Below are positions 1 to 58,408 of a stretch of 64,000 nt of DNA, piece after piece. The notes under the pieces are model-generated. The model was not told the origin of the DNA, made no database searches, and worked only from the letters and a program-made list of their open reading frames with translations. The stretch is taken from NCBI RefSeq assembly GCF_032854445.1, contig NC_088295.1, forward strand, positions 50,207,385-50,271,384, given 5' to 3'. Every line of letters begins with the position of its first letter. Position 1 is the first letter of the stretch. This DNA comes from Liolophura sinensis. Lineage: Eukaryota; Mollusca; Polyplacophora; Chitonida; Chitonidae. The position numbers and the translations under genes were made by a program.

Positions 1-304
1 AGGCTTGAGGGACATGTATGTGTGCAAGATTTGCCTCCCTTTGTGGACAGCAAGTGATTTGTAATGTTTTATCAGAGAGTGTTATTTTAATCAAGACAAA
101 AATTTGTTTTTAAAGATATAATGTTTTCTGAGCAAATAAAAAAAATTGAATAATATTTGTTTAATATTGTGTTTAAGAAAACTTTTTTTTTCTCCTTTTT
201 TTGTTAACAGACCCTTCCGAGAGAAAAACCTACACATTTTAGACAGGAATCTTGCTGTCAGTCTTCATCCTGGATGCTTTGAGACATATCTTGTGATCAG
301 TTAA
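1..304 (+). CDS. Last two coding exons of an unidentified gene (partial)
   Basis: Two pieces join cleanly. Bases 1-53 are open in frame 1 and end at a possible donor (AA|GTGATT). A strong polypyrimidine tract and acceptor (TTAACAG) precede 211. Joining 53 to 211 keeps one frame and gives a C-terminus of about 48 residues containing VCVQDLPPFVDSK, then PFREKNLHILDRNLAVS, ending HPGCFETYLVIS before TAA at 302-304. The flow across the junction and the good acceptor are the evidence. I do not recognise the family, and the 5' part lies outside the window. The 53|54 donor is weak, so 211-304 could belong to a different transcript. Confidence 0.4.
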
Positions 305-2513
305 AAGAAATTGCTATTATGTTGGCAGCTAGCTAAATGATTTTAGTGAATGAATTGCATGATTTACAAATATTTTCTCATTTAAAGTATTAATTTCTGC
401 ACGGAAAAACTTGCATCCAACTAGTCACCACAGTATTAAGTGGTCTGTAATTTGAAACTGATAATACCGGCTATATATTGACATACACAACATGCTTCTT
501 TCCTTTGGTATTAAAGGAAAGAAGATAAAACAGAATTATTTACATGTACATACATTGCCAGAGAAGCATGCAAATGCATGTGAATTGCAATAAATCACCC
601 ACAAAGGTATACTTTTGTCTTTTTGTGGCAAAGCCACAATGGCATAAAACCTGTTTTTGTGTTAACATGCTGATAGTATACTCCAAATTAGGTGAGAAAA
701 ATCATCATACTCAGAGAAAGTTGGTGTCTTATAGAGCCTAGGCTACATGAGAAATTAAATATTTCTGGTAAAACAGAAGTCCACGAGACATTACGTGCAA
801 AGCTATAAATTTACCAATTTGCTGTAACAATTTAATTTGGGTTTGTTGTAGGAGGTATTTTAACATCCAGTATTATCCTTCTTTCCAGAGCACATTTTGT
901 GATCTTCCAAAGTGTCTTGAATCTAAAATAATGATAATAAAGTCTGTTTTATGTAATATGATAAAATAAATATCTATATACATGCACTGGTATGCTTCAA
1001 AGCTCTGTTTGTGCATTGTCATTGTGTTGTCAATGTGTTGTCAGTATCAATTGACAATGCATAAGTCTATTTTGGGACGTTGAATTTTATGAGTTTTAAA
1101 TTGGAATACATATCATGCTGTGTAGTTTTGATGGAAAAAAAATATGTAACACCAAAGCATGAATTTCTTTATGAATCATAAAGTAAAGGGCATTATGCAA
1201 ATCAAGTGCTTTTCATGTTTTGTCAGTTAAGCCCATTTACAGTTTTTCTACATATACAATGTATGTATTCCAGAATATATTTTATCAAATTGTGGTGAAT
1301 TGGTTTTGGTGCTTTGTGTGAAATGAAATTTTGATTTTGTGTTGAGTGGTGAGAGGGTGATACTATGCAATATTCAGGTGCTGCCAGAGCTCGTACTGTA
1401 TTCATTTCTAGCAAAGTAGCCAGCTTTCCTGGCAAATTATTAGGCTCCATTAGGTCTATGTCAATAAATACAAAAGTGTAAAGAAGGAGGGCTGATGCAT
1501 AGACTGTTCCACTTGTAAAATTTAACGATTACATGTATGTTAGACTACTGGAATTCTTCCAACTTTTTACAGGTGTGCTAGAGTTTTTTTTAAGCATATT
1601 GTGAGGGCATTATTCTGATCAAACCTTCACGATCAAATTTGGTATCAAACATGAATAATAAAAAAATATTAGGTGTTGTTACTTCAGCCAAGAAGACTAT
1701 ATCATTTCACAGCTGTATGACGATTACAAAGATATATTGATATTTTGTAGTGAATTCTAAATTAAAACCTCTTACCATACCGTAACGTTTTTAACAACAA
1801 TATAAGCATATGCTAATGCTTTACATTGTTGGCTGGTTATTTAAAATTTGCAATAATATTTGACCAAAATTTTACCGGGCAACCCTGACTGCAATGGTTC
1901 AGTTACTGTCCAATTAAACCTATCACATTTGACTCCTTAATTGTTTCCCTTGGCAGCCAGCATTTCATCCTCGGCACCCCAACTATGGAACTCGTTATTT
2001 CATTGTTATGTAAAAACTTTCACGAAAGGTGACACAACCTAATGATCCTGAAAAAATTGCTCTTAGATTCCAGCATCAATGTCCCAAAATATTGAAACAG
2101 GAATCATGTATCTTCAGTCTTGTCATGATGTCATAGTGACAGGAGGCTAGTATTTGGGGACTTACTGATGTCAGCCAAGTGAAATTGTTTTGTGTTATTT
2201 GTGTTGGTCGAGGCCAAGGTCCTAATGTATGTGTACATTCATGTGGGAAATCTTTGGGATTGTGTATAGATTTGTTTAGAAACACAAACAAAGGGAGTTA
2301 ACCAGTGCTTGGCATTGACCACTGGGTCGATGCAAACTTTGAGTGGTCTTCTTCTGTAGATCTGTTCAAGCTGCTACATCATTTAGAAGGTATGAAATTT
2401 ACTCTATCATAATTATGTTCTCATTTTTTTCATAGTTATCATAAAGGATATACTTATTGTATATATAAGTATGTTCATGCTGTCATTCATGCTTGCTGTG
2501 ATTTATACCCCAG
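305..2513. other. 3' UTR and intergenic AT-rich DNA
   Basis: No supported coding exon was found. The first part is probably 3' UTR of the left-edge gene. Short open frames here have no recognisable domains and no convincing splice context. Confidence 0.5.
936..941 (+). terminator. Candidate poly(A) signal of the left-edge gene
   Basis: AATAAA lies about 630 bases after the TAA at 302-304 and is followed by a T/G-rich stretch, as expected for a 3' end. Other AATAAA-like hexamers occur nearby, so the exact site is uncertain. Confidence 0.35.
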
Positions 2514-2631
2514 GGGCCCCCTTTCACAAAACTTCCTAGTCATATTTCTCGTAACATTTTTCAGACGTTGTCTAGGTTACCGTGCTATAAGGCGATGTCG
2601 TTTACAAGAAAAGTTTTGTGAAAGAAGGCCC
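2514..2631. mobile_element. Short MITE-like element with terminal inverted repeats
   Basis: The ends are imperfect inverted repeats of about 21 bases. The left end (2514-2534) begins GGGCCCCCTTTCACAAAAC, and the right end (2611-2631) reads as its complement with about three mismatches. The total is about 118 bases with no coding capacity. A related element of similar length is at 10375-10504. I did not identify a clear target-site duplication. Confidence 0.5.
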
Positions 2632-3487
2632 AGAAGCTTATTTGAAGAACGGTTAATTTTGTTCTGGGCACTGACACTGATGTGTTTGTCAAAACTTTAA
2701 GAACATTGTGTAAATCTGCTATCAACCAGAAGGCTATGTGATATCAGTAATAATCAGAGTATGTATGCCTGTGTTAAGTGAACACAAAAATAAGGTAAAA
2801 TACATTCTGAAAAGTATTGTAAGCTGTGTATGTGGTGAAAGGGTTTTTTTTCCCATTGCAATATATAAATTGGATTTTTAAAAGAAGATAATATATATTT
2901 TGCAATATGCGTCCAAGATCTGATCTGCCATTATTTGTTATGTAAATTAGTTTCTGCCCAAAAAACATTTATGTAACAAATGTAAGTTATTCAGATGGGG
3001 TAATTCCAACTTGAATAATGGTAACAATTACTAAGATGTGTTTTTTAAGAAATTTGTTTTGGGCATTTCTCACGGTGAGTAAATACAAGCTTACTATATA
3101 TATATCTCAGTGTTAATTGACTATAAGTGCTTGGTTACAGGTGTCTAGCTATTTGGAATTGGTGTACTGTATTTTGTTATTCTTGTGAAGACCCACATGC
3201 CTTGTAAGCTAATGTTAAGAATGGATAATCCGTCTGAAGTTGAAGTTTTTCAATAAATCTTGAATGTGGTAAAGAACAATGATTTTGCTTTGTATTTTGC
3301 AATCAATGAATTAATTTTCAAATGATTTTCAGGTAACGGGTACATATGTAGCAGTGATATGCATTTATTTTCGTTCTCCTGTCTTAAGAAGAGTCGTAGT
3401 ATGTGATGAGTTCAGGTCTTTGCTTTTGGTGCAATGCTGCACAGGAGAGTTTTTCCTATTTTTGGTACCATCATGATGTTGGTCTAT
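2632..3487. other. Intergenic, nothing recognised
   Basis: AT-rich sequence with only short, featureless open frames. No exon, RNA gene or repeat could be supported. Confidence 0.4.
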
Positions 3488-3604
3488 GCTCGGGTCTTCA
3501 CCGGGTGTCGGAAACCAGGGTGCCCAGCTCGGGTCTTCACCGGGTGTCGGAAACCAGGGTGCCCAGCTCGGGTCATCAGTGGGTGTCGGGAACCAGGGTG
3601 CCCA
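3488..3604. repeat. 39-bp tandem repeat, three copies
   Basis: Copies start at 3488, 3527 and 3566. The first two are almost identical; the third differs at a few positions. The unit is GC-richer than its surroundings and carries CCGGGTGTCGGAAACCAGGG. Because 39 is a multiple of three, frames stay open on both strands. The predicted peptides there are repeat by-products, not a gene. Confidence 0.85.
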
Positions 3605-4616
3605 GCTAGAGTAAACCACCAAATTACCCAACATGTATAGATGTCTGTGCAAACATAAAACCCACTGAAGCCAACACAACCTCCATGTATATTCTCCGGA
3701 TGGATACCCTTTTAATTACAAGAATGGAATTTATTTTGATGGTGACTTTATCAGGATGAATGTTCATAAACACCGATTATTATTAACAGCTGACACACAG
3801 TCTCTTCTAAGTTCGGAACCAGTGGTTCCCATAAGTAATAGTGAACTCCATGTAGTTTGTCAGTTACTTGCTTGAGGTCAGGGGTTTTCTTTGGGTGTCC
3901 TGCTATCCTCTACCTGTAAGCCTAAGTCATCACCATCACATAAGTTTAAAATTCTTGATTGCGGGGCGTGAAGCACCAATCAGATGAATAAATAAACCTA
4001 TATTCCCTTTTATCTTGACCACACAATCTGCAAAACGTAGGCAAGAGAGTGTGATTACCAAAATTATAACATAATTTTTTACTAGAAGCCAGTATCAGTT
4101 TTTCCAGTATGTTCATTTTGGTCAGTATGGGTGGATATTCTCAAACTCACTGGCAGAGTTCCAGTACCCTATTTTTTTATAATTTGGTATTATCTATTAT
4201 CTATTCCTTTTTTCTTTTTGGATATTGCAATATTATCTACCCAATAATTATATTACTGAATCATATAAAAGCTTACTGGACTGACTTTTTTGTGAAAATA
4301 CACTAAGAAAAAAATCATATATTAGGGCCTACGTGGGATTAAGATAGGTTCTCCTAATCCCCTGGCCTACACATACCTTACAATTACATTCTTGAGCTAT
4401 AATACTGAAGGAACTGTCGTTTCAATCTGCAGAAGTGTTTTTCGTGTTGTGTTTTTGTTTGTTTTTTTTGGTGGTAATTTTGCCTTTGAGACTTTGACAA
4501 CAGTTTCAAGTTCAAGTTAAGTGTTGATCAATATACACACTATACAACGTTTGTAAGGGCAAACAGCTGTGTCATTCTGCAGAGTTGTTCCCCTTTACGA
4601 GGAAGTCAGCAGCATG
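3605..4616. other. TOLLIP upstream region with a decayed SINE tail
   Basis: About 3880-3997 holds a diverged fragment of the main SINE family: a TTCTTGATTGCGGGGCG-like body end, ACCAATCA and an ATAAATAAA tail on the + strand. The rest is non-coding and probably contains the TOLLIP promoter. No TATA box was seen near the start codon. Confidence 0.4.
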
Positions 4617-4624
4617 TGACGTCA
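4617..4624. promoter_or_regulatory. Perfect CRE palindrome upstream of TOLLIP
   Basis: TGACGTCA, the full CREB/ATF consensus, lies 35 bases upstream of the TOLLIP start codon, in the probable 5' UTR or core promoter. The sequence is exact; its function is inferred from position only. The same octamer also occurs near 21.1 kb and 50.2 kb away from any gene, so chance is possible. Confidence 0.4.
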
Positions 4625-4658
4625 AGTCACACAACTCACAGGTGCACGTACAGTAAAA

Positions 4659-4712
4659 ATGGCTTCGACGCAACCAGGTCATGATAGCTCGTCAGGATCC
4701 AGAAGAGATCGG
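4659..4712 (+). CDS. TOLLIP: TOLLIP coding exon 1
   Basis: Encodes [18 protein letters not shown] (residues 1-18), a polar Ser-rich N-terminus. It ends in phase 0 at CGG|GTATTT. The start is the first ATG before an open frame that reaches a donor in phase with exon 2; the context AAAAATGG is good for initiation. The stretch is not conserved with vertebrates, so this exon rests on splice fit alone. Confidence 0.8.
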
Positions 4713-7700
4713 GTATTTATTGTTTTATTCGTTCTTTTTGAGATGCTAGACAATGTGTGGAAGGTTTCTCTTCAGTGACGTCGATTTAAAGATCCAATTG
4801 CTCATTATCTTGGAGGCAATCTCCATTTTATGCATTGTGATCTTTCAACTGTCACTGATCGAGTGTGACTTAGGTTAAGGTTGAGATTTCATTGCATAGA
4901 TCTGATGCATGTATGCTCTTTGAGCCACAGTCTTAATAATTGAGACCAAGGACTGATGACATGAAAGCAGTATGGTGTGTTACAGTCGTGAATCTCCTGT
5001 CCTGTCACTTCACTTTAGACAGTTGAAGAATCGGCTACATGATATAGTTGATAATTTGTCGTCGTCATGTCACAATAATTTATATTGTAGTATCATATAT
5101 TCTGCATCATGCGCAAATTATGGCGTTTTACATTATAATTTACATTAAATGTTAACGATACTTTTAAAATTACGCTCTACATTTGTGAACTTCTGTTATT
5201 GTAATGTCCTTTTCGTCACTAAGTCCCTATAAAGTCCATGTCCGTGGCTGATAGTGTTTTAAAACTTTTTTAACCATGCTAATTAAACAGTGTCTCTTCC
5301 TAATGTAATGGTGGTGATATACACAAATGCACATGTCTCATCTGGTAGTACAGTAAACTTGTCCAGTATGCAGGGTAAAAAAAACCACCACACTTACCTT
5401 GTACTACATCTGGATCCATGCTCTTGTATTGGTATAGCTTTGGCAGACCACCTCTCCTATGCTAAGGTTTGATTTGTTTGGCAAAGTTCAGAATGTCTAT
5501 ATGTCCACCAGACTTCATAAGTCACATATGTAAAGTACATGTATATTCTCAAATATGTCTACATGAATTGCATATTAACCCTCTATTGAAACTCCATAAT
5601 GAGCTATGTCATCTTAGTAGGAATCAAGGATTATCAATTCCTGTATTGTATAAGTTATTTTCCTGTAACTGCCCATTACTCATCTATCAGACGAGACAAT
5701 ATTATCAGAAATTACATTTTGGGAGGTGATAACTGTGATCATCATGAATTTAGATGACTTGTTCCTGTTAACCATGAAACAGAGTTGATCATATATGGTA
5801 TTATATCAGTGGATCTGGTTTCTTATCTTCCTGGTTTTAAAAGTAAAGACAACTCTAGACCAAGTGCAAATATGCATCAATACAGTACCCCACATACAGT
5901 TTAAAAAGCAAACATTTCATTTCTTTTTCTCTTTTTTTTTCTTATTGCATAAATCATGCACAATGAGAAAATCAAAACAGCTGCCATGTTGCCAGTTTTA
6001 AACTAATTTCACTGATGTCACCCAAACTTTGTTTTGCTGTTTAGACACATGAGCGTGGGGCACACAACATCATAATTCTGGTTTCACTGACGAAGTCTCT
6101 GCCTTCGTAAGAAGTCCAGCGTAAAAGTTGATTAACAGAGTTACCAATTTCATCAGAGAAAAATTGCTGCAACCATTTAGATCTATTTCCACCTCTCTTC
6201 TTGAATAACTAAGGTTAAATTATTTGTTGTCTTTTCCTTTAATAACTGGAGAAAAGTCAGACTGCTGAATAAAAACTGTACTTAGCCTTGCCTTTGCCTG
6301 GGGAAGTGAAGAAAATAGGAGATGCACAGATCAGAGCTTCATTGGTGTATGAAGAGATCATTTGCTTGATGATTCTTTGACTTCTTTTGACTTTGTTACA
6401 GATAATTCTAGATGATTTACGTGATGTATTTCTTTGTTACATGTAACATAGTGTGGATTAGCAAATGACTTTCCATCTTTGTTGTAGGTAATTCTGTGTG
6501 ATTTAGCTGATTCTCTGTATTTGTATTTGTTACAGATAATTCTAGATGATTTACTTGATGTATTTCTTTGTTACATGTAACATAGTGTGGATTAGCAAAT
6601 GACTTTCCATCTTTGTTGTAGGTAATTCTGTGTGATTTAGCTGATTCTCTGTATTTGTATTTGTTACGGATAAGCTAGGCGATTTGTTTGATGATTTTCT
6701 ACCTGCGTTTATTACAGGTAGTGCTGGGTGATTTGTTTGATGATTTTCTACCTGTGTTTAATACAGGTAGTGCAGGGTGATTTACACACTTTTCTGTCTA
6801 TGTTACAGGTAATGCTGGGTGATTTGCCTGATGACTTTCTTAGAGTACAGACAAACCCACAGCAGCAGCAAATGGCAGAAGATGCGCGGATAGCTCAAAT
6901 TTTACAAGCTCAGCAGCAAGCTGGCTATGTCTGCCAACCTTCAAATATCACAGGAAAACTGTCCATCACTGTTGTTCAGGTGGGTATATCACATGGCTTG
7001 ATTTGTTTTCCTGTGCCAGTTACATTCTTCACTTTTATTTAAGTTTGAAGCTCATCATCAGAAATGTTTATGTGATGTTTAACATTAAAAGTCATTCTAA
7101 ATGCGCTTTGAAGTTGTTTTGTCCCCCATTATGGACTTGCGGAAGACACATTAACTGGAAAAGATATGCGAACAATATCTCGTGAACACTTTCAAGCTAT
7201 TCTGGGACATGACATCAATAAGTTAATCACTGGGATTGGTTTTAAGCTAAGAAGATGCTTCAACCATCCTGCTCGCCACGATATGGCTGAAATATTGCCG
7301 ATGTGGTGTTAAGCCATAATCATTCATTCAACCATCCTGGCTTCCTTGTTGTTTGTCAACAAGAAAATTTGAGTGAAAACTGTGAGTTTGACTTATTGCC
7401 TTCAGTAGGGGAGTCTCAAGTTCGACTCTTTTGTCGTTAAATGTAAAAACAGTCCTCTTGTATCAAGTGACTTGTGGAAAATGTTAGGCAACCTTTGCAG
7501 ATGTTAATGTCCCCATCACTTGTTTCACTGTGGCTCAGAGGCTCAAACAACACCTCTTTCCTTTGGAAGCTTCTCAAGTTCTAGAACGTTCTGCTCCACA
7601 AATTTCTCCATCTCTATACAACTTTTTGTGAAACCTGATTATCAGATGCCCATGCTGTAGTAAAATGTGATCCTGCAGTAGTGGCCTAACATTTTTGATG

Positions 7701-10700
7701 GGTAACATGATACAGTAGAACTTTTTTTTACCTCTAGCGATAAAAACTCAAAGACATCAAAACAAAGGCCTGTATGTTATTGATAATTTAATTCCTTTCT
7801 TCCTCATATCTGGAATAACTATAAAAGCAGTGTGCACGTAGAATATAATACAGGTAGTGAGAAGATTTACATGTTATGCTATTGTTGGTTGGGGGACATG
7901 GGCCTCAATGATCTGTTTTCAGGGTTAAATTAGACTCTCAAATATGTGTCATGCTGACGTTTTTACAGTAATAATCTTTGCATGTAGGTCCGAGAGTATG
8001 GATCATGAATGGATAGCGTATGGTTTGATACCGAATGGTGTAGCAATGGAGCGTAGCAGTGTGAATTAAGTACATGGATGACACTAGTGTTGTTTTTGTG
8101 AATGGCTTACGATGAAAGGCTTCCTTGAATGTGTTTTTCTGCCTTTAAACACTGTTGCCAGGAAGATAAATAGTTTGTCCTTTCTTCTCACTTGGTTGTG
8201 TTCAGATAGTGGCACAAAGCACATGCAAAGTACATGCACCCAAGTGGGATTATGGAGAGTGCACTGCGATATTACAACGCATCATCACGCCACATGATTC
8301 AATAGGGTGTGGTTGTAAATATGTCCGCTAAGTAATTTACAGTGTTGCAAACCACGAGAGTTTGTGTCTTATTTAGACCATGCAACTGTCAGGACCTTGA
8401 CAAATGGGGTCTTGTGCGAATGCGTCCCGCTGTTTCAGCTTCTACCTAAAGTCAGAAGCTGTGTCAGGTGCCTGGAGGGTTTGCTCCAGACACTCTGGTT
8501 CTCCTATCTATAAATTCTTGATTACCACCAATCAAACACTGATGCAGTAGGTCAATCAGCAGCCAATGCCACTGATAGCCAGACTTACAACCGATTTGTC
8601 TCATAACAAGATTTGTGTAGTGAGGAAGTGATTTGCTTCCATGCGTGGACTGGTTAGCCTACACCCCCTCACTGTAATCACCTCCTAGGCTGGATAAGGT
8701 GCCCTAATTCCTCAACCTTTTCGCTCATGAAAGAACTTTCAGTGCAATTTATGCAGCTTTTTAATTTGATTTTGGAGACAGAACTACATTGATGGGATTA
8801 GCCAAGTTTACGGTTTCACAAAGAGTGTAATTTTGGCAGTGTACAACCAGTATTGCCTTAGAGTATGCTGGAATAAACACCTTCAAACATGCGGAAAAGT
8901 TGAAGAATTCACTAAATACATATAGCGGTTTTACAGCTACATGTGGGACATTGTGTCTGGCAGTATAGCATAGATGTTGTGAAAATCCTGCAATGATATA
9001 AGTGCTTGTTGTCATTATTACATCAAGGTCAAACTGTGTAGTAAATAGACGTGATAGAGGTCACATGTACTGTATAACACCTTAAGTGGGTAAATAAACA
9101 AGCACTTTCAGAAGCACACAAAGGCCTGAAAATAACACTTTTGACGCCAACACTCAAAAGGTGTCACTTGAAAAATGTTAAAGCCTAATGGGAGAAATGC
9201 AGTATCTGCCTCTGTATTTGTCTGCGTCAGTTGTTTACGTGTACCTGTGACATGGCTTTGTAGCTACACAGTGTATTAACAGATACTGTAGATTTTAAAT
9301 AATGTGCTTCGGAATTATAGTGTCAGCTCTATCATACTAGTAGTTGATTATCACAGTGATGCCCTTTTTAGTCAAAGTGATATCATAAACAAGTGAGACA
9401 CAGTACGTCTAACTCATCAAAGGGATTAATGACATGTACTGGACACTCAACAGTCCTTGACCTATTGACACAGATTTGGAGCCACTACTTGCAACTACAA
9501 CAGAGGATACATGGTATATATAGGGCTACCATTATCAAAATATGCTTGTTGGGGGTCGGTGGGGGGGACCCAACCTTCTATAAAGGCCCCTGCTCTAAAA
9601 ATTTTATTGGGATTTAGATAGAATTTCGTTTTGGTTATTTTCTCTCAGTATGAATTTCTTTGAAATCCCCATCTTTTTCATTTGCTAGAAGAAAAAAAAA
9701 TTCCCCACTGACTGACTCTGGGTTCTGGAACAGTTCTTTAGTAAATTTAATTAATCAACCATTCTGATAGGTACCACTTTTGCTTAACAGGCAAGGCTTG
9801 CCAAGAATTATGGCATCACAAAGATGGATCCGTACTGTCGCATCCGAGTGGGTCATGCTGTCTTCGAGACACCTACTGCTGTCAATGGCGCCAAGAACCC
9901 GAGATGGGCCAAATCTATACAGTGGTAAGAAATACTAGCAGTATTTGTCTGTCTTCTTGTACACATCAATGGATCATGGATTGTTACTACTGTTTTCGTG
10001 AGTGACAGGTCAGAATTTAATCTTGAAAGACACAGATATGTTTTTATAAGATTTTGAAATCATTTCAGTTAAATTGAGAGGAATTATGATATTTGAAGAT
10101 TGGAATCTTTTTTTTCTTACTCCAATTTTGTTCTGTTTTCAACAGTTACATGGCCCCTGGTGTGGATACCATGTATGTTGAAATCTTTGATGAGGTGGGT
10201 ATTGTTTAATTATTTGGCCGATAAACATGACAAAAGTTGATCAAATCTGTATCTTAAGTTTTTGATTGGTTTAATGTGAATTTGTTGCAGTAAGCTGTTA
10301 CCATTAGCTTGCCTTTGGAGTAAAATAAGTATGCCATGATAATAATTTGAAAAATATTGCAGGGTTATTGCCTTGGGCCCACTTGTGTGAAGCCATCTTT
10401 ACATAACGAGCACATAACTACCATGGCAACCGGGAATGTAGGCATTACATCGCCATGGCAGCTGTGTACTCATAGTGTTAAGTGGGCTTCATATAAGTGG
10501 ACCCAAATTAAAGGTGACTGTACCATTTAGATAATAACTGTATTGTCAATGAATTAAGCTGAAGATCGGATGGTTACAGCTATGAATTTGTTTGTTTTTT
10601 GTCTCCAGCGGGCCTTCTCCATGGATGACCGTGTAGCCTGGGCTCACATCAAGCTGCCAGAGTCTGTGTTCAATGGGGAGACAGTAGATGATTGGTTTTC

Positions 10701-12618
10701 ACTGAGCGGTCGTCAAGGAGATGATAAAGAGGGAATGATCAATCTTGTCATGTCTTTCATTGTGAGTATGATTGTGCTGGTCAGATTTTCTCAAAACTTG
10801 GTAAATTTCCTTTTTGTGTTTCCACATACTTGCAGTTATATTTTCCATTTACTTGTTGTGAGGATAGAAATCATATTGGAAGCTCACTGTTGTCATAGGA
10901 ACAAAATAATGTTGATTGCATGAAGCCTCAACAACAACAACAACAATACAACAACAATCTAACCATAAACTTTTGTTATTTTGTCAAGAATAAGAGTGGC
11001 TTCTTTGACATTCAGTACACACTTGTGTCTTAGTGATGGTAGCCATTGCTATCTGTGTGTTCCAGCCGGTGCAGAACTTGCCACCTTCTACCGGATTTAT
11101 GTACCCAGCTGCCCCACAGATGATGGTCCCCATGATGGCCCCAGGGGTGACATATTACCCCACACAGCCCATGAGTATGTATTATATGGTTGAATTTTAT
11201 ATATTATTTTTATATATATATTTATTACTATATTTCTACTCCTTGTGTTTTTTTTTTTTGTGGGGGGGGGGGGACTTTCAAGTGACACACTTTGAAGTTG
11301 TAGTACTTCTGCTTAAACTGACATGTTCTCTGGCCGTGACGTATTGGATTGTCCTGAAGGATGAATAGCCTGTATACAATGAGTTCAAACCCACCTATTC
11401 TGCTGATTCGGCTTTGGCTTTACGACACTCAAAAATACTAACTGCTGTCATATAATTAAAATATTTTTCCTGTGCCGTTCAAAGTGCCAATAAATCAGCA
11501 TGTGCTAAGACTTTGGTGAAAATCATAAGTGTGAATGTTCCTGGTAAATACTCCCACACATTGTGTTTGAGGAATTTGGGGGAAGACACCATTCAAGGAG
11601 CAAGATACTGTGATTCATTTTCTTCCAAAAAACTTATGTTGAGGGAGCCTGGTGTTTTGTGACTTCCGCTTGTCTGCAAGATATCTTTGAAACTCTCTAT
11701 CTAATCCGAGTTTCAAGCTGTCTTATGAGGACCTTAATAACTGATTAGATTTTGGTGCCTGTGTCTTTACCCGTTTGACTCTTTGTTGGTTTCCAGTAAT
11801 TCTCTTTGGCTACTTTTGTCTGCTTGATACATGTATCGTCTGGACTAACTGAATGATTTAATGAAACTTAGTTTCGGTTTGATTTAATTTAATCAGGGGC
11901 CCTCCGTGGCTCAGTTGGTAAGGGCTAGCGCAGCATAATGACCCAGGAGTCTCTCACCAATGTGGTCGCTCTGAGTTCAAATCCAGCTCATGCTGGCTTC
12001 CTCTCCAGGCGTACGTGGGAAGGTTTTCCAGCAACCTGCAGATGGTCATGGGTTTCCCACGGGCTGTGCCCGGTTTCCTCCCGCCATAATGCTCTCCGCC
12101 GTCGTATAAGTGAAATGTTCTTGATTGTGGCGTAAAACACCGATCAAATAAATAAATAAATAAATTTAATCAGCTTTTGGTTTCCCACTGGTGGCTGTCC
12201 ATCTGATCATCTTTGAACCATTCTGATATTTTGCAAGATTGCACCACTGTTAAATAGCTGTTAGGATGGAGGAGATATTTGTTTTGGTTGCAAAATGTTC
12301 TAGTTTCTGTTTGATATGATATCAGTCTCATGAAGGACCTACATGATCACGGTACATAATAAACAAATTTGAATGAGGGGAGATAACTGCTGTTAGGCCT
12401 GTCATTTATCTCCCCTTTATTTTTTGTCTTCAGTGTACACTCAGCCAGTGGGTAATGTTATGCCTCAGCAGCCCATGTTTACAGAAGAGGACCTCAAACA
12501 GGCCAAGGACATGTTTCCTAATATGGAGGAAGATGTGATCAAATCAGTGTTTGAGGCTAACCGGGGAAATAAGGATGCCTCCATCAATGCCCTGTTGTCC
12601 ATGAACTCTGATAACTGA
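4659..12618 (+). CDS. TOLLIP: Toll-interacting protein (TOLLIP), complete, seven coding exons
   Basis: TOLLIP is an endosomal adaptor that links ubiquitinated cargo, Tom1 and phosphoinositides, and restrains Toll/IL-1 receptor signalling through IRAK (known from vertebrates). Coding exons are 4659-4712, 6809-6979, 9791-9924, 10146-10194, 10609-10761, 11066-11174 and 12434-12618. All have GT-AG borders and join in phase to 284 residues, against 274 in human. Visible parts are the Tom1-binding motif GDLPDDFLR (22-30); a Gln-rich linker; a C2 domain from about 66 to 175 with [31 protein letters not shown] and [18 protein letters not shown]; a Met/Pro-rich linker; and a C-terminal CUE domain (about 241-281) with the ubiquitin-binding MFP (250-252) and di-Leu (277-278). 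No breaks were seen. Intron 1 carries an odd tandem array of acceptor copies. Confidence 0.96.
6361..6808 (+). repeat. Tandem degenerate copies of the TOLLIP exon 2 acceptor plus exon start
   Basis: About seven copies of a motif made of a pyrimidine tract, ACAG or GTAG, then a GTARTNCTNGGTGATTT-like start and TGATGATTTTCT precede the true exon 2. Junctions fall after 6401, 6487, 6535, 6621, 6668, 6717 and 6766, and the true one after 6808. The first four form two copies of a 134-bp unit (6401 to 6535, 6487 to 6621). The next are spaced 49, 49 and 42 bases. The repeated block spans an intron-exon boundary, which is unusual. Confidence 0.85.
6809..6979 (+). CDS. TOLLIP: TOLLIP coding exon 2 (Tom1-binding motif, start of C2)
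   Basis: Residues 19-75, phase 0 at both ends. It starts [13 protein letters not shown], matching the conserved ELPQDFLRI region of vertebrate TOLLIP, followed by a Gln/Ala-rich stretch and GKLSITVVQ, the first strand of the C2 domain. The donor is CAG|GTGGGT. An upstream in-frame acceptor after 6766 could extend the exon by 14 codons. Confidence 0.93.
7259..7339 (+). mobile_element. Very short SINE-like insertion with target-site duplication
   Basis: A 55-base insert (7272-7326) starting CTCGCCACGATATGGCTG and ending in a CATT-repeat tail is flanked by identical 13-base copies of TTCAACCATCCTG (7259-7271 and 7327-7339). It sits in TOLLIP intron 2. The element matches the end of longer molluscan SINEs as I remember them. 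The same insert with the same start is at 49190-49250. Confidence 0.7.
9791..9924 (+). CDS. TOLLIP: TOLLIP coding exon 3 (C2 domain)
   Basis: Residues 76-119 plus two bases of codon 120. It carries the C2 core with [19 protein letters not shown] and NGAKNPRW, nearly identical to vertebrate TOLLIP. The acceptor is TTAACAG and the donor TG|GTAAGA, phase 2. Confidence 0.95.
10146..10194 (+). CDS. TOLLIP: TOLLIP coding exon 4 (C2 domain, 49 nt)
   Basis: A short exon completing Cys120 and encoding [16 protein letters not shown], the beta strand and loop of the C2 domain. It returns the frame to phase 0 at GAG|GTGGGT. It is too short to stand out as an open frame and is supported by homology and phase. 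Confidence 0.94.
10375..10504. mobile_element. MITE-like hairpin element in TOLLIP intron 4
   Basis: The left end (10375-10394) begins GGGCCCACTTGTGTGAAGCC; the right end (10485-10504) is its complement with three mismatches. The interior also has partial dyad symmetry around CCATGGCA. Its inside resembles the complement of the inside of 2514-2631, which suggests one family in opposite orientations. Confidence 0.5.
10609..10761 (+). CDS. TOLLIP: TOLLIP coding exon 5 (end of C2 domain)
   Basis: Residues 137-187, phase 0 at both ends. It encodes [19 protein letters not shown], then the strongly conserved [19 protein letters not shown]. The acceptor is CTCCAG and the donor ATT|GTGAGT. Confidence 0.96.
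11066..11174 (+). CDS. TOLLIP: TOLLIP coding exon 6 (Met/Pro-rich linker)
   Basis: Residues 188-223 plus one base. It encodes a low-complexity Pro/Met/Tyr linker, as in vertebrate TOLLIP. The donor GA|GTATGT splits a Met codon that is completed by exon 7. Reading through this donor stays open for a further 60 residues, but these are intronic. Confidence 0.88.
11886..12173 (+). mobile_element. Full-length tRNA-derived SINE, main family, in TOLLIP intron 6
   Basis: The best copy of the main family (body 11897-12162). It starts GGGCCCTCCGTGGCTCAG with an A-box-like TGGCTCAGTTGG, has a B-box-like GAGTTCAAATCC, a conserved body with GCTGTGCCCGGTTTCCTCC and GGCGTAAAACACCGATCAAA, and ends in (AAAT)n. 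An 11-base target-site duplication AATTTAATCAG flanks it (11886-11896, 12163-12173). The sense strand matches the gene. It is mobilised by a LINE in trans, as is general for such SINEs. Confidence 0.9.
12434..12618 (+). CDS. TOLLIP: TOLLIP coding exon 7 (CUE domain and stop)
   Basis: Completes Met224 and encodes residues to 284. It contains [19 protein letters not shown] and [14 protein letters not shown], the CUE ubiquitin-binding domain, before TGA at 12616-12618. The acceptor is TCTTCAG. Confidence 0.96.
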
Positions 12619-43350: not shown

Positions 43351-46300
43351 ACATGCACTATAGACAAGGAGAAATCCTCCGTGGGTTGTTCTTTATATTG
43401 ATGATTGTTGAAACTTCTCACCATGCTCACCTGGCATACATGGTACCTGTGCTGGATGTTTTGTACCATGCACTATAGACATGGAGAAATCCACCGTGGG
43501 TTGTTCTTTATATTGGTGATTGTTAAAACTTCTCACCTTGCTCACCTGGCATACATGGTGCCTGTTCTGAATGTTTTGTAACGTTAACTATAGACAAGGA
43601 GAAATCCTCCGTGGGTTGTTCTTTATATTGGTGATTGTTAAAACTTCTCACCTTGCTCACCTGGCATACATGGTGCCTGTTCTGAATGTTTTGTAACGTT
43701 AACTATAGACAAGGAGAAATCCTCCGTGGGTTGTTCTTTATATTGGTGATTGTTGAAACTTCTCACCATGCTCTCGTGGCATACATGGTACCTGTGCTGG
43801 ATGTTTTGTACCATGCACTATAGACAAGAAGAAATCCTCCCTGGGTTGTTCTTTATATTGGTGATTGTTGAAACTTCTCACCATGCTCTCTTGGCATACA
43901 TGGTACCTGTTCTGGATGTTTTGTACCATGCACTATAGACAAGGAGAAATCCACCGTGGGTTGTTCTTTATATTGGTGATTGTTGAAACTTCTCACCTTG
44001 CTCACCTGACATACATGGTACCTGTGCTGGATGTTTTGTAACATGCACTACAGACAAGGAGAAATCCTCCGTGGGTTGTTCTTTATATTGGTGATTGTTG
44101 AAACTTCTCACCTTGCTCTCTTGGCATACATGGTACCTGTTCTGGATGTTTTGTAACATGCACTATAGACAAGGAGAAATCCTCCCTGGGTTGTTCTTTA
44201 TATTGGTGATTGTTAAAACTTCTCACCATGCTCTCTTGGCATACATGGTACCTATTCTGTATGTTTTGTAACATGCACTATAGACAAGGAGAAATCCTCC
44301 GTGGGTTGTTCTTTATATTGGTGATTGTTAAAACTTCTCACCTTGCTCTCTTGGCATACATGGTACCTGTTCTGGATGTTTTGTAACATGCACTATAGAC
44401 AAGGAGAAATCCACCGTGGGTTGTTCTTTATATTGGTGATTGTTGAAACTTCTCACCAGGCTCTCTTGGCATACATGGTACCTGTTCTGGATGTTTTGTA
44501 ACATGCACTATAGACAAGAAGAAATCATCCGTGGGTTGTTCTTTATATTGGTGATTGTTAAAACTTCTCACCATGCTCACCTGGCATACATGGTGCCTGT
44601 TCTGGATGTTTTGTAACATGCACTATAGACAAGAAGAAATCATCCGTGGGTTGTTCTTTATATTGGTGATTGTTAAAACTTCTCACCAGGCTCTCTTGGC
44701 ATACATGGTGCCTGTGTTCTGGATGTTTTGTAACGTTAACTACAGACAAGGAGAAATCCTCCGTGGGTTGTTCTTTATATTGGTGATTGTTGAAACTTCT
44801 CACCATGCTCTCTTGGCATACATGGTACCTGTGCTGGATGTTTTGTACCATGCACTATAGACAAGATGAAATCCTCCGTGAGTTGTTCTTTATATTGGTG
44901 ATTGTTGAAACATCTCACCATGCTCTCTTGGCATACATGGTACCTGTTCTGGATGTTTTGTACCATGCACTATAGACAAGATGAAATCCTCCGTGAGTTG
45001 TTCTTTATATTGGTGATTGTTAAAACATCTCACCATGCTCTCTTGGCATACATGGTACCTGTGCTGGATGTTTTGTAACATGCACTACAGACAAGATGAA
45101 ATCCTCCGTGGGTTGTTCTTTATATTGGTGTTTGTTAAAACTTCTCACCATGCTGTCTTGGCATACATGGTACCTGTGCTGGATGTTTTGTACCATGCAC
45201 TACAGACAAGATGAAATCCTCCGTGGGTTGTTCTTTATATTGGTGATTGTTAAAACTTCTCACCATGCTCTCGTGGCATACATGGTACCTGTTCTGGATG
45301 TTTTGTACCATGCACTATAGACAAGGAGAAATCCTCCGTGGATTGTTCTTTATATTGGTGATTGTTAAAACATTCTCAAAACTTCTCACCTTGCTCTCTT
45401 GGCATACATGGTACCTGTGCTGGATGTTTTGTAACATGCACTACAGACAAGATGAAATCCTCCGTGGGTTGTTCTTTATATTGGTGATTGTTGAAACTTC
45501 TCACCATGCTAACCGGGCATACATGGTACCTGTGCTGGATGTTTTGTAACGTTAACTATAGACAAGGAGAAATCCTCCCTGGGTTGTTCTTTATATTGGT
45601 GATTGTTAAAACTTCTCACCATGCTCACCTGGCATACATGGTACCTGTTCTGGATGTTTTGTAACGTTAACTATAGACAAGGAGAAATCCTCCGTGGGTT
45701 GTTCTTTATATTGGTGATTGTTAAAACTTCTCACCATGCTCTCTTGGCATACATGGTGCCTGTTCTGGATGTTTTGTACCATGCACTACAGACAAGGAGA
45801 AATCCTCCGTGGATTGTTCTTTATATTGGTGATTGTTAAAACATTCTCAAAACTTCTCACCTTGCTCTCTTGGCATACATGGTGCCTGTTCTGGATGTTT
45901 TGTACCATGCACTATAGACAAGGAGAAATCCTCCGTGGATTGTTCTTTATATTGGTGATTGTTAAAACATTCTCAAAACTTCTCACCTTGCTCTCTTGGC
46001 ATACATGGTACCTGTGCTGGATGTTTTGTAACATGCACTACAGACAAGATGAAATCCTCCGTGGGTTGTTCTTTATATTGGTGATTGTTAAAACTTCTCA
46101 CCATGCTAACCGGGCATACATGGTGCCTGTTCTGGATGTTTTGTACCATGCACTACAGACAAGATGAAATCCTCTGTGGGTTGTTCTTTATATTGGTGAT
46201 TGTTAAAACTTCTCACCATGCTCTCTTGGCATACATGGTGCCTGTGCTGGATGTTTTGTAACATGCACTACAGACAAGGAGAAATCCTCCGTGGGTTGTT

Positions 46301-46365
46301 CTTCATATTTGTGATGGTTGAAACTTCTCACCATGCTAACCGTGCACTACAGACAAGGAGAAATC
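43351..46365. repeat. 115-bp satellite array, 26 copies
   Basis: The string GTGGGTTGTT is at 43381 in the first copy and 46291 in the last, 2910 bases apart. This equals 25 x 115 plus three 11-base inserts and one 2-base insert, so 26 copies are counted. The unit carries GGAGAAATCCTCCGTGGGTT, ATATTGGTGATTGTT, CTTGGCATACATGGT and TGGATGTTTTGTAACATGCA. Three copies (45361, 45835, 45961) carry an extra ATTCTCAAAAC. Variant letters recur in groups, which indicates higher-order units. Open frames of 63-149 residues on both strands are by-products. Confidence 0.95.
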
Positions 46366-57662: not shown

Positions 57663-58408
57663 TCCTATAACCAATGAGGCCCCAATAACCAGAGCTCCCT
57701 GTAACCAGTGATGATGGGCATGTAAACCACGAGGTCCATATAATAAATGAAGTCCCTATAACCAGTGATGATGGGCATATAAACCATGAGGTCCATATAA
57801 TAAATGAGGTCCCTATAACTAGTGATGATAGGCATATAAACCATGAGGTCCATATAATAAATGAGGTCCCTATAACCAGTGATGATGGGCATATAAACCA
57901 TGAGGTCCATATAATAAATGAGGTCCCCATAACCAGTGATGATGGGCATATAAACCATGAGGTCCATATAATAAATGAGGTCCCTATAACCAGTGATGAT
58001 GGGCATATAAACCATGAGGTCCATATAATAAATGAGGTCCCCATAACCAGTGATGATGGGCATATAAACCATGAGGTCCATATAATAAATGAGGTCCCTA
58101 TAACCAGTGATGATGGGCATATAAACCATGAGGTCCATATAATAAATGAGGTCCCTATAACTAGTGATGATGGGCATATAAACCATGAGGTCCATATAAT
58201 AAATGAGGTCCCTATAACTAGTGATGATGGGCATATAAACCATGAGGTCCATATAATAAATGAGGTCCCTATAACCAGTGATGGTGGGCATATAAACCAT
58301 GAGGTCCATATAATAAATGAGGCCCCTATAACTAGTGATGATGGGCATATAAACAGTGAGGTCCATATAATAAATGAGGTCCCCAGTGAGGTCCCCAGTG
58401 AGGTCCCT
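57663..58408. repeat. 57-bp minisatellite, about 13 copies
   Basis: The unit carries GAGGTCCCTATAACCAGTGA, TGATGGGCATATAAACCATG and AGGTCCATATAATAAAT. Inner copies are nearly identical and the ends are degenerate. As 57 is a multiple of three, two minus-strand frames stay open for 256 and 233 residues as 19-residue repeats. Having two open frames at once argues against coding. Confidence 0.93.

Follow-up and report, generated by a model that had tools for sequence, protein, structure and literature searches.

A tandem array of acceptor-like units at the end of intron 1 in a predicted TOLLIP gene of Liolophura sinensis

Within a 64,000-nucleotide stretch of the Liolophura sinensis genome (the window, to which all positions refer), we found nine tandem units of 41–49 bases upstream of the inferred acceptor of TOLLIP exon 2 at 6809. 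They form an array at approximately 6388–6808, in which each unit repeats a pyrimidine tract, the acceptor position and the start of exon 2. The reading that we favour, and consider probable, is that a minisatellite-like tandem duplication across the intron–exon boundary made decoy acceptors, with 6809 remaining predominant and the array being largely tolerated, not selected. The locus would be one gene showing how repeat growth over an intron–exon boundary can multiply acceptors, and would allow spliceosomal choice between similar acceptors 42–96 bases apart to be tested in a natural setting.

Host gene and layout of the array

The host gene was assigned to TOLLIP on the + strand, with a predicted open frame of 284 codons. 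Exon junctions, including 4712/6809, were placed by homology, GT-AG borders and the open frame, and the joined inferred exons hold the N-terminal Tollip region, C2 and CUE within one reading frame. In the 284-residue protein, Pfam located the C2 domain at residues 67–168 (E 3.6e-13) and the CUE domain at residues 241–281 (E 1e-10); five separate peptides and the raw ORFs returned no Pfam family. The exon 1–2 peptide matched a solved fragment, 2n31 (Toll interacting protein variant, E 1.4e-5), and tblastn with human TOLLIP matched the window's gene. Viral contigs, scanned once with a peptide of TOLLIP, yielded three pattern matches but no relative. We take the N-terminal part of TOLLIP, exon 2 included, to be Tom1-binding. 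Passages of a published study, in contrast, assign Tom1 binding to the CUE domain of Tollip, and describe alternative splicing of Tollip as known in mouse and human (PMC1431733). The gene features are as follows, a slash marking the splice junction:

4659..4712, + strand: exon 1, coding part; inferred donor CGG/GTATTT at 4713, U1 duplex −6.6 kcal/mol
6809..6979, + strand: exon 2 (171 bases, 57 codons), its acceptor TTACAG/GTAATG inferred to be the true one from homology and the full reading frame
6980, + strand: inferred exon 2 donor, CAG/GTGGGT
9791-9924, + strand: inferred exon (homology, GT-AG borders)
10146-10194, + strand: inferred exon (homology, GT-AG borders)
10609-10761, + strand: inferred exon (homology, GT-AG borders)
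11066-11174, + strand: inferred exon (homology, GT-AG borders)
from 12434, + strand: inferred exon (homology, GT-AG borders)

The array and the duplications within it, the latter from sequence comparison, are laid out below:

6360..6381, + strand: possible partial leftmost exon-like copy, weak (local alignment score 26, within the shuffle range, maximum 34)
6402..6442, + strand: unit 1, 41 bases; acceptor TTACAG/ATAATT
6443..6487, + strand: unit 2, 45 bases; AG lost, TTACAT/GTAACA
6488..6535, + strand: unit 3, 48 bases; acceptor TTGTAG/GTAATT
6536..6576, + strand: unit 4, 41 bases, copy of unit 1; TTACAG/ATAATT
6577..6621, + strand: unit 5, 45 bases, copy of unit 2; AG lost (ACAT)
6622..6669, + strand: unit 6, 48 bases, copy of unit 3; TTGTAG/GTAATT
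6670..6717, + strand: unit 7, 48 bases; AG lost, TTACGG/ATAAGC
6718..6766, + strand: unit 8, 49 bases; acceptor TTACAG/GTAGTG
6767..6808, + strand: unit 9, 42 bases, with an open frame that continues into exon 2; acceptor ATACAG/GTAGTG
6386-6519 and 6520-6653, + strand: three-unit block of 134 bases, present twice with 3 differences
6674-6722 and 6723-6771, + strand: two copies of a 49-base unit, 4 differences between them

The AG is kept in six of the nine units, those at 6443 and 6577 reading ACAT and that at 6670 reading ACGG, and the retained AGs, with 6809 counted, are spaced 42–96 bases apart. Six of the units are distinct and well diverged; the few differences within the 134-base and 49-base duplications suggest that part of the array's growth was recent.

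When the acceptor and exon start (query 6789–6845) were aligned locally with the intron (4713–6788), seven separate places scored 40–62, as compared with a mean of 21.7 and a maximum of 34 in 500 dinucleotide shuffles of the intron, and with at most 26 in 26 other blocks of the window. As controls, the five other TOLLIP acceptors scored 16–26 against the introns upstream of them (at most 2100 bases each), all six acceptors scored 16–28 against the 2 kb downstream, and the six donors scored 14–20 against up to 2100 bases of their own introns. The array thus consists of direct repeats that hold an intron end together with an exon start, bearing out an earlier note on this DNA, in which a block of pyrimidine tract, AG and exon start had been described as copied in tandem. 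That note had begun the array at 6361, which held for approximately 6388–6808 but not for the leftmost 6360–6381, whose score lies within chance, and its count of about seven copies has to be raised to nine units before 6809.

Acceptor quality and predicted products

Using a simple acceptor matrix built from approximate frequencies, the six decoy acceptors scored 3.93–6.91, as compared with 4.07–8.34 for TOLLIP's six true acceptors, and five of the six decoy AGs outscored the weakest of these; 6809, at 8.34, ranked highest both in the array and among the true acceptors. Depending on the decoy, only 8 to 62 of the 3491 AGs in the window scored higher, and every decoy exceeded the best (2.50) of the 88 intron 1 AGs upstream of 6380, while out-of-register AGs within the array scored −6.87 to −1.69. 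Judged by these scores, the decoys are good enough for use in splicing, in support of the decoy function suggested earlier, and since they score like true acceptors the upstream sites might see more use than supposed. Within exon 2, TCTTAG at 6843 scored 1.54, with 5.6 % of AGs higher, and a TACAG lies at 6846–6850, 42 bases past the acceptor at 6809 and in the register of the array units. The match is weak, being equalled by 3 of 130 exon 2 9-mers and by 2.35 % of 20000 window 9-mers; it makes a unit of wholly exonic origin conceivable, which counts against a block that spans the boundary.

Joining exon 1 to 6402, 6488, 6536, 6622 or 6718 is predicted to give a protein that stops after 32–48 residues, and 6767 is the only one of the six decoys with an open in-frame product, of 298 residues, which exceeds the normal length by 14. 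The frame also stays open from two out-of-register AGs, with exon starts at 6722 (313 residues) and 6776 (295 residues), but their scores are poor, at −1.69 and −1.92. As exon 2 is 171 bases long, its skipping would keep the frame. Under tolerated duplication, the reading preferred here, the array would act as a row of competing acceptors in which 6809 is most likely the predominant one and 6767 is used at a low level, adding 14 residues; the other decoys would lead to early stops and loss of the message by nonsense-mediated decay, and the array as a whole would be largely tolerated rather than selected.

Alternatively, the array could be an acceptor rheostat, in which copy number, possibly different from one individual to the next, determines how much of the TOLLIP message is productive and how much encodes the form with 14 extra residues. 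We regard this as unlikely, although the decoys score like true sites, the 6767 frame is open and divergence within the 134- and 49-base duplications is low; in ABCA7, moreover, the length of an intronic repeat correlates with exon skipping (PMC5954066). That VNTR shares with the array an intronic tandem repeat and a possible effect on splicing but, in contrast to TOLLIP, no acceptor array is described in the abstract (PMC5954066). Conservation of the splice core (−6 to +4) was 0.78, as compared with 0.60 elsewhere in the units (permutation P=0.031, range picked post hoc), in a column test on six of the ten units that left out 6536, 6577 and 6622 as duplicates and 6670 for a gap. This conservation could mean selection for acceptor function, but the signal is weak and post hoc, which counts against the rheostat. 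Less probable again is a version in which variable copy number would balance the normal protein, the form with 14 extra residues, stop-containing messages and in-frame skipping of exon 2 through its donor-like start.

AG/GT junctions and recursive splicing

Five of the ten sites, 6809 and the four upstream units at 6488, 6622, 6718 and 6767, carry AG/GT after a pyrimidine tract (pyrimidine fraction 0.69–0.81), while 6402 and 6536 have no GT, both reading AG/ATAATT. The junction AG/GTARTG, which the earlier note had listed for all five, is present only at 6718, 6767 and 6809; 6488 and 6622 read AG/GTAATT. Pyrimidine tract and AG/GT are shared with recursive sites and RS-exons as these appear in parts of four published accounts, and TOLLIP exon 2, beginning with GTAATG, resembles an RS-exon in regenerating a donor-like junction (PMC6224609, PMC6110457, PMC8605326, PMC10156609). 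U1 duplex energies were −6.5 kcal/mol at 6488 and 6622, −8.5 kcal/mol at 6718 and 6767, and −8.1 kcal/mol at 6809, those of the copies being no more extreme than the energies of the six real donors in this gene (−5.1 to −13.3 kcal/mol, the strongest being that of exon 2). Among the 264 AGGT sites of the window, only 6718 itself attained the level of 6718 on both scores. Once exons 1 and 2 are joined, their junction reads CGG/GTAATG, a donor-like sequence of −7.4 kcal/mol, as compared with −6.6 kcal/mol for the native exon 1 donor, and the AG/GT sites regenerate donors of −7.4 to −7.8 kcal/mol; joining to 6402 regenerates one of only −1.7 kcal/mol.

The array could, on these grounds, serve recursive splicing, with exon 1 joined to an upstream AG/GT copy and the regenerated donor, stronger than the native one, then joined to a later acceptor. 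We consider this quite improbable. The nearest hops, of 42, 48 and 49 bases, are near or below the usual animal minimal intron length and look too short; hops of 91–321 bases from AG/GT copies to later acceptors also exist, which weakens the argument from spacing. Judged by U1 duplex energies only, the regenerated donor would not outcompete the far stronger exon 2 donor, and competition between regenerated and downstream donors decides the recursive outcome in the portions of PMC6224609 and PMC8605326 that deal with it. Intron 1 is only 2096 bases long, while in flies recursive splicing is apparently confined to very long introns, as stated in part of PMC6110457; a long host intron is not an absolute criterion according to a passage of PMC10156609. 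In comparison with the recursive systems as those excerpts present them (PMC6224609, PMC6110457, PMC8605326, PMC10156609), TOLLIP has a short intron, closely spaced sites and a stronger downstream donor. The missing GT at 6402 and 6536 also speaks against this mechanism. The form of recursive ratchet points noted earlier is therefore real in the four upstream AG/GT units, but intron length and donor competition speak against recursive splicing itself, as does the spacing in the case of the shortest hops.

Origin of the array

The structure of the array supports well an origin by tandem duplication, and with it the earlier suggestion of a relic of slippage. Replication slippage or unequal exchange would have duplicated the end of intron 1 together with approximately the first 33 bases of exon 2, and the duplication would then have been repeated, including later rounds of the 134-base three-unit block and the 49-base unit. 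We infer that copying ran from exon to intron, the exon being taken as the source and the intronic units as copies because the start of exon 2 encodes conserved TOLLIP sequence, as supported by the matches to 2n31 and to human TOLLIP. The exon start stretch CCTGATGACTTTCTTAG, encoding LPDDFLR, looks by eye like a branch point followed by a pyrimidine tract; after duplication, the exon start of one copy could therefore provide these elements for the acceptor of the copy after it. The resemblance of this conserved stretch to branch point, pyrimidine tract and AG, again by eye, is a suggested reason why repeat growth at this boundary could multiply acceptors.

The nearest published case that we found is a boundary duplication in a potato RdRp gene (PMC4974935), in which, as in the array, the block reaches from the last part of intron 1 into exon 2 and carries pyrimidine tract and AG; the potato block also has a putative branch site. 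There, one duplication gave rise to a new RNA-supported intron, whereas TOLLIP has nine short units (PMC4974935). In the system of Hellsten et al. 2011, as far as its citation in PMC4974935 describes it, repeated AG/GT could likewise supply donor and acceptor; the TOLLIP unit differs from what is described there in that it seems to include an intronic acceptor, at 41–49 bases. Among the matches listed in a narrowly worded search of open-access literature, none dealt with duplicated acceptors in an array, which is a weak negative.

Very improbable, in our view, is an origin of the copies as exonic repeats that kept the frame, each having 42 bases or 14 codons with TACAG at its end, and that turned intronic as the acceptor moved downstream. 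The unit at 6767 is 42 bases long, open and in frame, and the weakly matching TACAG of exon 2 lies at the same distance, but this tail similarity is weak and human TOLLIP, inspected by eye, is without such a repeat. Differences between copies and exon fell on codon positions as 8, 6 and 10 in total for 33 bases from each of 6402, 6488 and 6718, with no clear excess at the third position. These three belong to seven copies that were compared; the total omits two duplicates (6536 and 6622) and two copies that are gapped or shifted (6443 and 6767), and units 6577 and 6670 lay outside the comparison. The counts show no clear coding constraint on the copies, and the idea was rejected. A peptide reading of 6402, 6488 and 6718 may hint at past coding use. 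An assembly artefact, at least of copy number, is extremely improbable, since the six well-diverged distinct units are not a product of misassembly, even though no more than 3 differences separate the 134-base blocks.

RNA structure prediction for the array gave a z score of −1.72, with equally good folding in 6 of 100 shuffles. Arrays with a period of at least 30 bases form 10 clusters in the window, the acceptor array included, and cover 9.9 % of it, so that, as an informal argument, it is no great surprise for one of them to coincide with an exon boundary. Approximately 12 copies of a 57-base unit lie at 57692–58383 (TRF 96 % matches), where both strands contain long open frames, and approximately 26 copies of a 115-base unit at 43351–46337 make up the longest array of the window.
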